DNA from: Pseudomonadota bacterium
Lineage (GTDB): Bacteria; Pseudomonadota; Gammaproteobacteria; Halothiobacillales; Halothiobacillaceae
NCBI GenBank assembly: GCA_021801265.1
Contig: JAJYYE010000012.1
Location: forward strand, 212,548 to 276,547
Reading direction: 5' to 3'
DNA length: 64,000 nt
A program made the translations under genes and the position numbers. Of the stretch, positions 26,012 through 32,884 are shown piece after piece (the first letter of the stretch is position 1; each line of letters begins with the position of its first letter). The notes beneath the pieces are model-generated. The model was given only the letters and a program-made list of their open reading frames with translations. It had not been told where the DNA came from and made no database searches.

Positions 26012-27244
26012 ATGCATCCACCGACTCATTCGCTCCCCCGCTCCACCAAGCGCACCCGCGCTTTATTTCTCGGTCCCGCGTTTGTGGCGGCCATTGGTTA
26101 TATCGATCCCGGCAACTACGCCACCAATATCCAGGCGGGGGCAGATTTCGGCTACTTACTGCTGTGGGTCGTGGTGTGGGCCAATCTCATGGCGGCACTC
26201 ATTCAGTTGCTCTCGGCCAAACTTGGGCTGGCTACGGGGGAATCGCTGGCATCCATGCTCGGCAACCGGCTCCCCCGATGGGCGGTGTATCCGTATTGGA
26301 TTCAAGCCGAAATTTTGGCCATGGCAACCGATATTGCCGAATTTATTGGCGCCGCATTGGGGTTTAAACTCTTGTTTGGCTTCACCCTGATGGAAGGCGC
26401 AATGATTACCGCAATCATCAGTTGGGCAGTGTTAAGTTTGGAGACGCGCAATCTCAAAACGTTGCAGTTGGTGATTGGCACCATGTTGCTGTCGGTCGCG
26501 CTGATTTATGTGGTGGAATTGTTTTACAGCCACCCGCATCCCGTATCGGTGTTTGAAGGCGCGCTCATTCCCGGCTTCGAGGGTCGCGACAGTGTATTTC
26601 TGGCGGCAGGAATTCTCGGTGCCACGGTGATGCCACACGTGATTTATTTACACTCGGCCTTGAGCAAAGCCGACCTGGTGAAATACGGCAAGCTGCATCG
26701 AAAAACCCTATTTCGCAGCACCAAATGGGATGTGGGCATCGCCATGACCATTGCGGGCTTTATCAATTTATCCATGTTGGCCATGGCAGCGGCGGTATTT
26801 TATGGCAACCCGGGCGCAGAATCCGGCAGCATTGAAAACGCCTACCAAACCTTAACGCCCATGCTTGGGCAAGTTGCCGCACAAATTTTTGGCGCAAGTT
26901 TACTCATCGCGGGCCTCGCTTCTACCATCGTGGGCACCTTGGCCGGGCAAGAAATCATGAGTGGGTTTGTACGCTTCCGTATCCCCGTTGCCCTGCGGCG
27001 CGCCATCACCATGACGCCCTCGTTCATCATCATCGCCATGGGCTTAAACGTCACCCAAGTGCTGGTCTATAGCCAAGTCATATTATCGTTTGGCATCGCC
27101 CTGGCACTCATCCCCTTAATGATATTTACGGGCGACCGTCGTTTAATGCGCGGCTATGCCAACCCCACCTGGGTTAATGTCCTAGGCTGGTTGACGGTGG
27201 GCGTTGTGGTCAGTTTGAACAGTTATTTACTCTTTACGAGCTGA
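26012..27244 (+). CDS. mntH: Nramp-family Mn2+/metal transporter
   Basis: GPAFVAAIGYIDPGNYATNIQAG; GATVMPHVIYLHSAL. Confidence 0.95.
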   Translation: MHPPTHSLPRSTKRTRALFLGPAFVAAIGYIDPGNYATNIQAGADFGYLLLWVVVWANLMAALIQLLSAKLGLATGESLASMLGNRLPRWAVYPYWIQAEILAMATDIAEFIGAALGFKLLFGFTLMEGAMITAIISWAVLSLETRNLKTLQLVIGTMLLSVALIYVVELFYSHPHPVSVFEGALIPGFEGRDSVFLAAGILGATVMPHVIYLHSALSKADLVKYGKLHRKTLFRSTKWDVGIAMTIAGFINLSMLAMAAAVFYGNPGAESGSIENAYQTLTPMLGQVAAQIFGASLLIAGLASTIVGTLAGQEIMSGFVRFRIPVALRRAITMTPSFIIIAMGLNVTQVLVYSQVILSFGIALALIPLMIFTGDRRLMRGYANPTWVNVLGWLTVGVVVSLNSYLLFTS

Positions 27245-27319
27245 GATAACCTCTGTGGACTTCCCCCGAAGTCACGGACACTTTTTGGACTTCCTGAGCA
27301 TCGCGCATTCTCCTCATCC

Positions 27320-27754
27320 CTACCGCCCAGCCTCTCTGGCCGTCACATATTCCTCTGGGCTGAGTGATCCCTCCGGCTCATGGGCAGGACAGCGGACCGT
27401 CCACCAACCGCCGTTCGCGGCGATCCGCCCAGGGCAACCGCATTCCTCGCAGATATGGGCAGACAGGATGCGGGCCAGATCGATGACGCTGCTTTGTGCC
27501 TCAGTCATCTCGTCTTCACCGCAGGTGATATAGAATCGAAGCCGTCCAAATTTCTCCTTGACCTGCACGGCCTCTGGCTGCGGGGTGCCCCGATAGTCGG
27601 TCAGGTACTGCAGACTGGTGCACAGGCCGTCGATCAGGTTGAACCAGCCATCGCCGCAGCAGAATCCGAAGTGCATCGTGCTGTCCTTTACCTGTCGCCG
27701 GGCGAAGATTTTGGGATAGTTCGCACACAGCAACTTGTCGAGTTCCTTGTTCAT
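27320..27754 (-). CDS. Hypothetical protein with C-terminal Cys pairs (possible zinc ribbon), mobile-element type
   Basis: ORF with ICEECGCPGR...WWTVRCPAHEPE; immediately follows a decayed metallophosphoesterase. Confidence 0.6.
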   Translation of the reverse strand: MNKELDKLLCANYPKIFARRQVKDSTMHFGFCCGDGWFNLIDGLCTSLQYLTDYRGTPQPEAVQVKEKFGRLRFYITCGEDEMTEAQSSVIDLARILSAHICEECGCPGRIAANGGWWTVRCPAHEPEGSLSPEEYVTAREAGR

Positions 27755-27766
27755 GGCGTTTCCTAT

Positions 27767-28021
27767 AGTTTGATCACCTTGGGTTCATAATTCCGTTCCC
27801 ATTCACCAAAGTCCTGGGGTTGCTCACGATCCGGGTTTGCCCGACACATAGTCCACCGGGTCATGCAAGTGGCAGTGCAGCCATAGATGCGGCTGGTGGG
27901 CTTTATTCCATGTCGCAACAAAAGAAACGGGAGATCGGACTGATCTCATACTTGGGATGCTGGCTTTGGAAGGTCGGCGCGTGGCGGGTCATGATCACGG
28001 TATTACCCGTGAAATAGAGAA
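27767..28021 (-). pseudogene. Decayed calcineurin-like metallophosphoesterase, C-terminal remnant
   Basis: Frame-shifting translation: YFTGNTVIMTRHAPTFQSQHPKYEISPISRFFCCDME / KAHQPHLWLHCHLHDPVDY / GQTRIVSNPR / DFGEWERNYEPKVIKL-stop. Confidence 0.7.
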
Positions 28022-28096
28022 AACACGGCAGACTCAACACTCAAGCGAGTTGAGTCTGGCTAGTTGATAAATTGTCAGCTTGGGCTAGTTGGCGTT

Positions 28097-30415
28097 TCAC
28101 ATAATGCTTTCCATCTCCAAATCTTGATAAAACAGCTCATATAACGCAAAAGTTCTTGTTTCTACTGCTCGTTGAAAGTTGGCTGCCCGGTCACGATCCC
28201 AAAAACGTAGATCTTTTTCATGTTCTTTCGATCGAGAAGCGCCGTCCCAAAAATTACCTTGGCTTTTAACATCAATTAGTGCATTCCTCGGAAGATCGGC
28301 ATATTTACGAATTTTTTCATCTGGAGGCGTATCACTCAAAGAACGGTTTTTGCTGCTATCTAATACATGGATATTGCCGATGGCATTACCCACAACCCAA
28401 TGGCCCGTTTTATCCGCATCATCATTATGACAATCGATCAATCTATTCCCCGCACCTGAGCCGGTCCAATACGACCAATGGGCAGTTGGTAGAATATGAT
28501 CATAATCATAGGGTGTGTCGTCTTCCATACCTGGAAGCACGGGCTGGCCCTTAAACTCGGAATAAACATAATCCCGCTGTAACCAAAGTAATATCGGGTG
28601 AATATGTCGACCATGGCCCCACAATCGATGATAAATATCAACGGCTTGCTGATCTATTTCTTCTTTTTGTGCGCTAAAACGATTGTTACCGCGGAGTATT
28701 TTATTCCCTTGATCAGGGGACATATCAGGCGTATAGGTTAGACCCTCAATTTTGCTTAGATCATCAGGTTTCGGCATTGGCAAGCCCAATTTTTTACCCT
28801 CTTCAGAGCAAAGATGCTCGATCAGAGACTGGTCGGGGAATGTCAGAAGCGTATCGTTTGCCGCCAGAATCTTTAGCTGCTTAATGCACTCTTTACTGGC
28901 CTCGGGCTTCTTGGTAATGGCCAGATGTCCCCACAATAAAAAACGCACCATTGGCAGCTTCGATGCTGTGTAGTCAGGGGTTGCGTCCAGATTGCCTAAA
29001 TACGCCCAAGCCAAGAGAACTTCGAGCAGAGAAGTGTCAATCAAATACAGTGCATGCTTGGGGAAGCCAACATCCTGCCCACTTGGGACATAGGCCAGTG
29101 CATTCAGAATGGCCGAAAGATGTCTCACAAATTTGCCGTCTTTAATTTGCTCAACAAACTGACCCTTGAAGCTTTCATGGGTGTGAATCAGCCGGGCAAA
29201 TTCTGCTTTATTAATGGCTGGTGTATCAGTTAATTGTTTATCATCACCTTTTGTCAACGACATCCAAAAGATTGTCATCCGAACCGCCGACATTACCAAA
29301 GAGGTTGGCGTAAATATCGCCTTGAAATGCTCAGACTTCAGCAGACCTTCAACTAAATTATATGCTTCCGGTTCAATTTGTTTGATGACAGAATATACAT
29401 AGTCCGCATTTGAAAGTTGTACGCCGCCTGTGCCCACTCTCTTAAATAAAATTGCAAGAGGGGGGTCCATCAGGTTGTCTTCTTTACCAATATTTTTTTC
29501 TTCAGCTATCTGGGCTGAAAACAAATTGTCATCAACCTGAATAATGGGAAACTGGTATTCATCAAGTTTTTTCAGATCTTGCTGAATTTGCTGAGCACGC
29601 CGCCCAATGGCATCGGGATCTATCGCACCTCTGGATGATAGGTTTCTACAGATCGCTTTTAAATAATCTTCACCTAATAACGAAGATGGTTCGGTATGTT
29701 CAAACTTTTCACTAAGTTGCTTTATTTCAGTGAAGATTTTGTCCAGATTGATGGACTCATCCATCAGATCAGCAAGCCGGACGGCAAACCTGGCCTTCCA
29801 AGGCATAAAGCTCGGCAATGCCCAAAACTGATCTAGTTCGTTTTTATGCTTATCTAAATCAACAAGATAGACGTAATTGGCTAATCGCAGGTCATGTTTA
29901 GACAGTTTGGCTAGCGCTTGGCCGCCTGTACTTTGCCGTTCATAGCCGAAGGGCTGATTGCGGGTGGTGATCCATAGTCGATATTGGTACTCATTGGGGG
30001 GCGTATCGTCAGCTAAATCAATCCAAATCGTCACAGCACGATCAAAAGTTGCCGCTTCTTTAAAGCCAGCCAGCATGGCCAGTGTGCGTTGCTGCCCATC
30101 AATAAGACCGATGGAACGCGACAAATCCTTTGAATCTAATTGCTCTTTTTGACCAATATTAACTGCATTCATCACACTTTCTGTGGCCATCATTGCGCCA
30201 ATAGGCATCCCGCGCAGAAGCGTGTCCCATAAATCAAGGATTTTATGAGGCGCCCAAACTGACCCCCGTTGAATTAGGGGTAAAGCGACATGGTAAGAGT
30301 TATCAGACACCCCGCCTTGCCCGAGGGCAGCATTGACCCACTCTTTGAATGAAACGGTATGAATTGAACCATCTTTGAAAAACCCTTGTTTTTCAGCATT
30401 TGAGTCTATCGTCAT
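28097..30415 (-). CDS. DUF262 + HNH (DUF1524-like) protein, candidate GmrSD/SspE-type anti-phage nuclease
   Basis: N-terminal LPLIQRGSVWAPHKILDLWDTLLRGMPIG...IGLIDGQQRTLAML; C-terminal YDYDHILPTAHWSYW...GNRLIDCHNDD...NIHVLDSSKNRSLSD. Confidence 0.8.
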   Translation of the reverse strand: MTIDSNAEKQGFFKDGSIHTVSFKEWVNAALGQGGVSDNSYHVALPLIQRGSVWAPHKILDLWDTLLRGMPIGAMMATESVMNAVNIGQKEQLDSKDLSRSIGLIDGQQRTLAMLAGFKEAATFDRAVTIWIDLADDTPPNEYQYRLWITTRNQPFGYERQSTGGQALAKLSKHDLRLANYVYLVDLDKHKNELDQFWALPSFMPWKARFAVRLADLMDESINLDKIFTEIKQLSEKFEHTEPSSLLGEDYLKAICRNLSSRGAIDPDAIGRRAQQIQQDLKKLDEYQFPIIQVDDNLFSAQIAEEKNIGKEDNLMDPPLAILFKRVGTGGVQLSNADYVYSVIKQIEPEAYNLVEGLLKSEHFKAIFTPTSLVMSAVRMTIFWMSLTKGDDKQLTDTPAINKAEFARLIHTHESFKGQFVEQIKDGKFVRHLSAILNALAYVPSGQDVGFPKHALYLIDTSLLEVLLAWAYLGNLDATPDYTASKLPMVRFLLWGHLAITKKPEASKECIKQLKILAANDTLLTFPDQSLIEHLCSEEGKKLGLPMPKPDDLSKIEGLTYTPDMSPDQGNKILRGNNRFSAQKEEIDQQAVDIYHRLWGHGRHIHPILLWLQRDYVYSEFKGQPVLPGMEDDTPYDYDHILPTAHWSYWTGSGAGNRLIDCHNDDADKTGHWVVGNAIGNIHVLDSSKNRSLSDTPPDEKIRKYADLPRNALIDVKSQGNFWDGASRSKEHEKDLRFWDRDRAANFQRAVETRTFALYELFYQDLEMESIM

Positions 30416-30429
30416 GATCAATTCCCTTT

Positions 30430-30747
30430 TTACCAAAGTTTCCAAATCAACTGCCCAGCCACAACCAAAATAGGTTCATTTCCAATTTCGTACGTATTGG
30501 ATGAGTTGGCACCGGATTTCGGCTTGATCTTTCGCCCATCAATAATCCACGTATTTGAGGAGAGCGCACCTTGTTTTGGCTTGAGCTCCCGGCCATCCCA
30601 CAACCATGTATTGGAAGAATGCGCATTTTGCTTCGGGCTGAGTTCCCGACCGTTTAAAACCCATGTGTTAGAAGATGTTGCACCTGATTTTGGCTTGAGC
30701 TCTTGGCCATCACAAAACCAGTTATGGGGTAAATCAATTTTGTTCAT
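30430..30747 (-). CDS. Small tandem-repeat protein, four 19-aa repeats (consensus WxxDGRELKPKxGAxSSNT)
   Basis: 105 aa = 9-aa leader + 4x19 aa + 20-aa tail; 14 bp upstream of the DUF262-HNH gene. Confidence 0.8.
   Translation of the reverse strand: MNKIDLPHNWFCDGQELKPKSGATSSNTWVLNGRELSPKQNAHSSNTWLWDGRELKPKQGALSSNTWIIDGRKIKPKSGANSSNTYEIGNEPILVVAGQLIWKLW
30493..30720 (-). repeat. Four in-frame 57-bp repeats within the small repeat protein gene
   Basis: Repeat starts (Trp codons) at 30720, 30663, 30606 and 30549. Confidence 0.85.
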
Positions 30748-30835
30748 ATCTTGTACGTCCTGTTGAAACATTAAAATTCATCTTTCGCCACCTACATCAA
30801 CGGCGAAGACATCATTGAGCTTTTGCAGCCATCGA

Positions 30836-31243
30836 TCATTCATCACGGCGATCTAGGTTCACTATTAGGATGGAGCCCTTGGGATCGGTGTCTTGGTTGT
30901 TTTTGTAAAATTTTTCGTACTCATCTTCGAACTGTGTGCTCAAACTCGGGTTGATGAATCCGCTCGCAACCATTTCATAGCCACAGTCTTCCCCATGGAT
31001 GTGGGCTTGATCCATCAGGTAGATACGAAGCACCTCTAAAGGTTCACCTTGCTCTGTTTTCAGGGAAAGATTGAGAAAATCCTGATCTTCCCCACCGAAG
31101 GTCGCCACTATGTCTGCCCTTATTGAGTCGTAATCACCAACGGAGGTGAATTTCCCATCTGCTATCCCCATGCACACATCGACGTTAGACAGATTGGTTC
31201 AGCCTTTTAGTCGATCGTTGCTGTAAATATCGAATCGCCGCAT
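30836..31243 (-). pseudogene. Hypothetical protein gene interrupted by in-frame TGA at codon 15
   Basis: AGGAGAAAAAAC-ATG (31243) MRRFDIYSNDRLKG-TGA-TNLSNVDVCMGIADGKFTS...; ORF 30836-31177 continues in the same frame. Confidence 0.6.
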
Positions 31244-31353
31244 GTTTTTTCTCCTGTTCTGTCATTGGGCATAAGCCACAGGTTTGAGATCGTGCTAACT
31301 TTTCTTAAATTGCAAAAAATATGCAGTTTTTCTGCTGGGTGTTTGATCGGGAG

Positions 31354-32225
31354 TGTAGTGGTCAACTAAAACCGGACAGGAAGTTGAGTTTTTTCTCAGC
31401 CACTGCGGGTGGTAACCCCTCATTGAACTGGTGTGGCCTCAACCAGTTATATCGATGTACCAGAAAATGGCTGATATCCCGTTGGGTCTCAAAGGCTGTG
31501 GCATAGCCCAACGCCAGCACCCATTCGGTCTTCAGGCTCCGAAACAGCCGTTCCACTGTCGCCTGCTTGTAGGCAGGCGAACCGGGTTGCTTACTGATCA
31601 ATCCCTGTTCCTGTATCAGTCGGCGCACCTTGAAGCGGCCAATATCAATGCCATCGTCTTGCATCATTGTCATGATGCTGCGGCTGCCCGCAGAGCCTCG
31701 GCTCTGTGTGAATAGCGCATTCACCTGGCTGCGCAGAACCATCCGCTCAAGATCAATATTCTGGCGTCTGCATCGATGTGCGTAGTAACTGGATCGGGAA
31801 ATACCGAACACCGCACAGCACAATTCAACGGGCTCTTGATGGCTTAACTGGTCAATCAACGCATAGGATCGAGATTTTCCGACATCAAGAGCGCGGTAGC
31901 CTTTTTTAAAATGGCCTTCTCGCGCTCAAGGCGATGAATCCTCGCCTCCAGCTCCTGAATTTTCTGCTGCTCAGGCGTCAACGCCTTGGTTTTTGGGGTC
32001 ATCCCATGACGTTCCTGCTAGTTGCTGCACCCAGCGACGCAGAACCGACTCGACTACCCCTCCGACCGGCTGGCCTCCATCAGGGTATACCCCTGATCCA
32101 GCACCAGCAGAGCCGCTTCCCGCTTGAATTCCGTTGAAAACGAACGTCGTTGTTTGCTCATCAGACACCTCTCTATGACGATGATTCTCGCCTAAATCAG
32201 TGTCCGGTTTCATTAGACCACTACA
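31354..32225 (-). mobile_element. Defective IS3-family insertion sequence, internally deleted
   Basis: Terminal inverted repeats tgtagtggtcaactaaaaccggaca / (rc) tgtagtggtctaatgaaaccggaca; orfB-like 31362-31859 lacks the DDE core; orfA frameshifted. Confidence 0.88.
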
Positions 32226-32332
32226 GCCACCGTCGATCCGCAGGGGCAAATCACCGCCCGGCTCAACTAAGACAGCTACGGTAACCTCATCCAAAGCAGC
32301 GGCAGCTTAGAGCAGATTCTTAAACTCAAAAA

Positions 32333-32884
32333 TCATTTAATCGGCGCCATCGCAGGTAACGCCTCAAGCTGAGTTTTCAACTCTGCTGGCGTGCACACGG
32401 ATTGAATCGATTCAACCACACCCGCCTTGAGCCGCAGTAAATCGGCGCAGCCTTTGGCGGGAATTGGCATGCCCGCTTTTTCTTGATCGTCACGAATCAG
32501 TGCCGCCGAATAATTGCGCTCCCGCATTTGCGGTAGGGCAATCAGTTTGCTCACCATCCAGGGCATCCGCGAAATATCTGAGAGATAAATCACCTGCCGG
32601 GCGCTTAAATTTGCCTGCCCCATTTCCGTCAATACCGGGTTCACCCATTCATCCACCGCTTTGGCATTCGCAAACAAAATAGCATGCGCCACACCCGGCA
32701 ATATCACAGGTTTATCGTGTTGATCAGTCAGGGTTAACGTGGGGAAGGGACTTCCGACAGTGAGCGCGGACGTTGGCGTGGCATTGGCGGGCGTTTCCGC
32801 TAATGCCAAAGGGGCGATCAGGCAAAAACAGGCCCCAACCATCCAGTTGTTCAAGATTGGTTTTTGCGTGCGGAAATAGGACAT
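32333..32884 (-). CDS. Periplasmic hypothetical protein, possibly thioredoxin-fold
   Basis: Signal peptide; VGSPFPTLTLTDQHDKPVILPGVAHAILFAN resembles a thioredoxin/redoxin start. Confidence 0.55.
   Translation of the reverse strand: MSYFRTQKPILNNWMVGACFCLIAPLALAETPANATPTSALTVGSPFPTLTLTDQHDKPVILPGVAHAILFANAKAVDEWVNPVLTEMGQANLSARQVIYLSDISRMPWMVSKLIALPQMRERNYSAALIRDDQEKAGMPIPAKGCADLLRLKAGVVESIQSVCTPAELKTQLEALPAMAPIK

Follow-up and report, generated by a model that had tools for sequence, protein, structure and literature searches.

A Putative Single-Chain GmrSD/BrxU-Like Nuclease Gene and an Adjacent 19-Residue Repeat Gene in an Accessory Island of a Halothiobacillaceae Bacterium

Results

Gene Content of the Accessory Island beside mntH

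The window, a stretch of 64,000 nucleotides from contig JAJYYE010000012.1 (assembly GCA_021801265.1) of a bacterium of the family Halothiobacillaceae, contains an interval of 5.1 kb that separates the end of mntH from the gene that follows. The same interval measures 73 bp and 62 bp in two genomes of the same genus (G006 and G004, respectively), which clearly lack the insertion, and about 180 bp, as judged from alignment ends, in G008; it is longer in G009. The interval in the window holds a nuclease gene and a repeat gene together with a 144-aa accessory ORF, a gene with an in-frame TGA, and a copy of an insertion sequence (IS), as follows.

27243-32354 (no strand): accessory insertion as a whole, bounded by mntH and by the gene at 32333-32884, flanks that are near-adjacent in G006 and G004
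27320-27754 (minus strand): 144-aa ORF of an accessory family, with matches of 54-58% in L020, L021, and L022
28097-30415 (minus strand): gene for a putative type IV restriction endonuclease of 772 aa, single-chain and GmrSD/BrxU-like, with DUF262 (DGQQR NTPase/ParB-like) at the N terminus and DUF1524 (HNH) at the C terminus, assigned from Pfam, a BrxU profile match, homologues, and motifs
30430-30747 (minus strand): gene for a 105-aa repeat protein, with four 19-residue, probably beta-hairpin repeats and a C-terminal hydrophobic segment, beta-flower-like, described from repeat statistics, purifying selection, homologues in L003 and Salinibacter, and low-confidence models
30839-31243 (minus strand): interrupted gene (pseudogene), the translation of which shows one stop
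31354-32225 (no strand): IS3-type copy with an internal deletion, bounded by terminal inverted repeats of 25 bp (I1) and recognized from these repeats, matches to a genome copy, and HTH_21 and rve_3 remnants (Pfam)

Re-reading of the ORFs and motifs confirmed the coordinates, strand relation, and motifs given for the nuclease and repeat ORFs by a first-pass annotation, which a model had made from the sequence alone. The GC contents of the nuclease gene (0.443) and the repeat gene (0.45) are low as compared with that of the window (0.53), consistent with acquisition. The interrupted gene starts at an ATG at 31243 after an AGGAGA box and carries an in-frame TGA at codon 15, followed by 120 further sense codons; it had no match in Pfam, PADLOC, NCBIfam, or PHROG. 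Relative to a longer copy in the same genome (G000:C5:37773-39004), with which it shows matches of 98% and 87%, the 872-bp IS copy lacks about 340 bp. The decayed neighbours and the IS, from which the first-pass annotation had proposed a mobile or defence-island context, are real, and the context proved to be a laterally acquired, IS-bearing accessory island whose flanks are nearly adjacent in G004 and G006. Other genomes of the genus also carry members of the 144-aa ORF family in accessory regions, next to metallophosphoesterase genes (neighbours read in L020), and in L022 two matches to this family lie side by side.

The Repeat Gene Is Conserved and under Purifying Selection

The repeat ORF runs from an ATG at 30747 to a stop ending at 30430 and encodes 105 aa, while an alternative in-frame ATG farther upstream, at 30771, would give a product of 113 aa. 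The closest homologue (L003, 66%), found in a Thiohalomonas denitrificans MAG, begins with MANKIDLP preceded by AAGGAGG, and in the window AGGA stands 9 nt before MNKIDLP. The 105-aa start, which the first-pass annotation had also chosen, is favoured because the L003 homologue has its start at the corresponding methionine, behind a strong ribosome-binding site, and because of the AGGA in the window.

The protein consists largely of four units, WFCDGQELKPKSGATSSNT, WVLNGRELSPKQNAHSSNT, WLWDGRELKPKQGALSSNT, and WIIDGRKIKPKSGANSSNT, the last of which is followed by a hydrophobic, aromatic tail, YEIGNEPILVVAGQLIWKLW. Tandem Repeats Finder detected a 57-bp period in the gene, and the residue identity at period 19 was 40/86, whereas 20,000 shuffles averaged 5.2 and reached at most 17, which rules out a chance repeat. 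Since the differences among the four units fall mostly at third codon positions, the repeats are old and selected, and this codon-position pattern excludes recent slippage as their origin. Between the window and L003 repeat genes, 33 codons differ by amino acid and 43 by synonymous change only, with 31, 19, and 66 differences at codon positions 1, 2, and 3, respectively; dN was 0.28, and dS was not estimable because of saturation. The repeat protein is thus maintained under purifying selection.

Three repeat proteins were found in total, in the window, in L003, and on a Salinibacter ruber plasmid. By inspection, the N terminus of the Salinibacter relative is signal-peptide-like, and six to seven units follow it. 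A rhomboid-like ORF, a 106-aa ORF, and an IS3-type transposase border the L003 repeat gene, and PDDEXK_4, WYL, and DUF2779 genes lie within a few kb of it, so that a loose association with defence is possible. Phage and viral searches with the repeat protein yielded no usable relative: a match on a viral contig (L030) lay in a large phage portal-like ORF, comprised one short GKEIKPKI stretch, and was judged to be due to chance. A second genome match (L002/L025; E = 0.29 with two stops) was disregarded. When more genomes were sampled, with either the repeat profile or the nuclease as the query, only the window's own genome was returned, apart from G771 and G010. The repeat protein represents a compact, selected, and unannotated family, which is real and conserved.

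Suggestive Resemblance of the Repeat Protein to Beta-Flower Proteins

Two structure models of the repeat protein both showed regular hairpins at low pLDDT (57.5 and 44.6), and the protein probably forms beta-hairpins. Its spacing and layout recall the beta-flower fold, which is described as having short hairpins, long loops, and a C-terminal hydrophobic segment (PMC10584680). As in the beta-flower proteins (PF21784-PF21786, Tubby clan CL0395), short, probable beta-hairpin repeats have long loops on one side, here of about nine residues, and aromatic and glycine positions as well as the C-terminal hydrophobic segment are shared. However, the D-G spacing of the window protein departs from the published [DNEQ]xxG motif, and the protein matches none of the three Bflower models.

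We weighed an explanation that has nothing to do with restriction, in which the repeat protein would be beta-flower/Tubby-like and would have a role in membranes or lipids. Besides the agreement in layout, the Salinibacter relative matched PF21786 (Bflower_3) over 120 of the 125 profile positions with E = 1.6e-4, and none of 10 permuted or reversed controls gave a Bflower match. The score of this match, however, was 22 bits against a cut-off of 34, i.e., sub-threshold, and the margin is modest because one control reached E = 0.001, by a short stretch, to another family. The window protein itself gave no Bflower match in Pfam scans, a direct profile comparison with a Bflower_3 member returned nothing, and fold searches of PDB and viral structures with its low-confidence model gave no match at E ≤ 0.001. 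In the genome of the window, PF21784 and PF21786 had no match at E ≤ 1e-6, PF21785 being covered by the Pfam scans only. Taken together, a membrane or lipid role of this kind is conceivable but doubtful, and the resemblance is suggestive; we call the protein beta-flower-like and do not claim membership. Matches of the repeat protein to Pfam BHD_2, BiPBP_C, and Choline_bind_2 were below cut-off, and permuted controls scored alike to unrelated families; these assignments were rejected.

The 772-aa ORF Has the Domains and Motifs of Single-Chain GmrSD-Type Nucleases

The nuclease ORF is intact, extending over 772 aa from an ATG at 30415 to 28097 on the minus strand. In accordance with the first-pass reading of this ORF as a DUF262 and DUF1524/HNH protein in a single chain, the HMM search exceeded the Pfam cut-offs for both domains, namely, GmrSD_N (DUF262, PF03235) with E = 4.2e-14 and 53.6 bits against a cut-off of 33.2, and GmrSD_C (DUF1524, PF07510) with E = 6.6e-7 and 29.7 bits against a cut-off of 23. 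The motifs DGQQR, DHILP, GNIHVLDSSKN, and NRSLSD are present. In an alignment of the window nuclease with its two full-length homologues (A3), DGQQR (106-110), D639-H640, N677/N681, and N690 are invariant, and DHILP, the GN..N positions, and NRS are also kept across the three nucleases. This agrees with the DGQQR and E/D-H-N-N motifs described for the GmrSD family (PMC4619093). The three-member A3 profile matched BrxU (7p9k_A) with E = 1.9e-9 over profile positions 34-115, in the N-terminal region, whereas the single-sequence search of the nuclease against BrxU gave an E value of only 0.038. The 772-aa ORF is best read, from these sequence comparisons, as a single-chain GmrSD/BrxU-like nuclease. 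Most GmrSD homologues act as a single chain (PMC10952713), and the window nuclease would therefore need no second gene.

The closest homologues, L057 (42%) and L058 (35%), are both full length and come from G010, a genome of another genus in the same family, so that the close full-length nucleases number three, including that of the window. A DUF2779 gene (L057:2236-3699) precedes the L057 nuclease gene by 15 bp, and a DUF2779 gene also occurs a few kb from the L003 repeat gene (L003:10506-12122); DUF2779 may be a defence-island gene in its own right. The L058 nuclease gene, upstream of which the contig ends, adjoins a UDG-superfamily (uracil-glycosylase) gene. A distant DUF262 relative on an Enterococcus faecalis plasmid (L006:52-6636) lies in tandem between a helicase/methylase-like ORF of 1249 aa and an integrase-like ORF. 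Viral searches with the nuclease gave no usable relative. The genome of the window encodes a second GmrSD_N protein (L060; G000:C9:278550-279293), which is not close to the window nuclease; that locus has three consecutive minus-strand ORFs, of 620, 638, and 572 aa.

The Repeat and Nuclease Genes Are Unlinked in the Few Relatives Found

The first-pass annotation had proposed that the repeat protein is a dedicated partner of the nuclease. The repeat gene lies upstream of the nuclease gene on the same strand, with 14 bp between its stop and the nuclease ATG; this gap suggests a single transcript and fits a functional pair. Both genes are intact, the next gene upstream being interrupted, and both have similarly low GC. 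These features would be accounted for if the two genes formed a defence pair specific to this lineage, with the repeat protein acting on the nuclease as its sensor, scaffold, or inhibitor. Against such a pair, no other homologue of either gene showed the linkage. The repeat protein had no match at E ≤ 0.001 in G010, the genome of both closest nuclease homologues, and none was found near the more distant DUF262 relatives that plasmids of Enterococcus and Variovorax carry. GmrSD_N had no match in the L003 genome, an assembled MAG that is possibly incomplete, although the same search was positive in 8 of 14 control genomes, and no DUF262 gene was found on the Salinibacter ruber plasmid record. 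Adjacency of the two genes was therefore seen in 0 cases in other genomes, every independent case being unlinked, in a small sample of three repeat proteins and three close nucleases searched by genome scans that are a lossy first look. In addition, the nuclease already holds both domains in one chain, and the signal-peptide-like start of the Salinibacter relative is ill-suited to a partner of a cytosolic nuclease.

The dedicated-partner claim was thus not borne out. Both known homologues of the repeat protein proved to be unlinked to DUF262 genes in the genome-wide co-occurrence check, an outcome that the first-pass annotation had itself named as speaking against its proposal. We reject the dedicated partner as the main explanation because homologues of each gene occur without the other; these sequence data do not support the repeat protein as a regular partner of the nuclease. 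A local functional link in this lineage is possible, and a lineage-specific defence pair is unlikely. A still less likely reading is that the repeat protein is the founding member of a beta-hairpin accessory that regulates or targets GmrSD-like nucleases and is exchanged among defence islands, pairing with different nucleases.

Comparison of the Nuclease with Known Systems

Like single-chain GmrSD enzymes (e.g., Eco94GmrSD), the window nuclease combines an N-terminal DUF262 and a C-terminal DUF1524/HNH domain in one chain, carries DGQQR and DH-x-x-P motifs, and lies in a defence-island context. It is remote from them in sequence, however, and the LTT that follows DGQQR is TLA in the window. 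Among solved proteins, the subfamily profile clearly matches BrxU (PDB 7P9K, 7P9M) alone; BrxU has the same domain order and motifs, but it measures 587 aa as compared with 772 aa in the window, and the match is confined to the N-terminal domain. No BREX genes were recognized among the insertion genes examined. The PADLOC candidates HEC-05, HEC-06, and PDC-M55C gave partial DUF262 or HNH matches in the window, each covering under 100 residues, which provide no evidence for complete systems. SspE shares DUF262, DUF1524, and DGQQR with the nuclease (PMC10952713). That the nuclease is an SspE-like phosphorothioation-dependent effector instead of a modification-dependent GmrSD/BrxU enzyme is nevertheless very improbable, since sequence searches of the PDB returned no SspE chain and no sspABCD-like neighbours were seen among the genes identified in the insertion.

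Discussion

The data presented above make it probable that the locus is an acquired island with a stand-alone GmrSD/BrxU-like enzyme, in which the repeat protein is a separate passenger and not a required subunit. According to this explanation, the 5.1-kb island beside mntH would have been acquired horizontally, carrying a working-looking, stand-alone type IV restriction enzyme. The activity and specificity of the enzyme may be presumed by analogy with GmrSD and BrxU: its DUF262 domain would bind and hydrolyse NTPs and recognize modified foreign DNA, which the C-terminal HNH domain would then cut. The repeat protein may fold as a compact, beta-flower-like hairpin barrel closed by the hydrophobic tail, and would be a passenger of the island, perhaps co-transcribed with the nuclease gene and independent of the nuclease.

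Of the first-pass interpretation, the nuclease identity and the island context held, and the dedicated partnership did not, as homologues of each gene occur without the other. The nuclease half was right and ordinary, the protein being a known kind of enzyme. An eye-catching neighbour has been shown not to be a conserved partner, and nothing here makes the repeat protein a new defence system. The window nuclease and its two close full-length homologues, both from a single other genome of the same family, add a divergent single-chain GmrSD/BrxU-like subfamily of three members.
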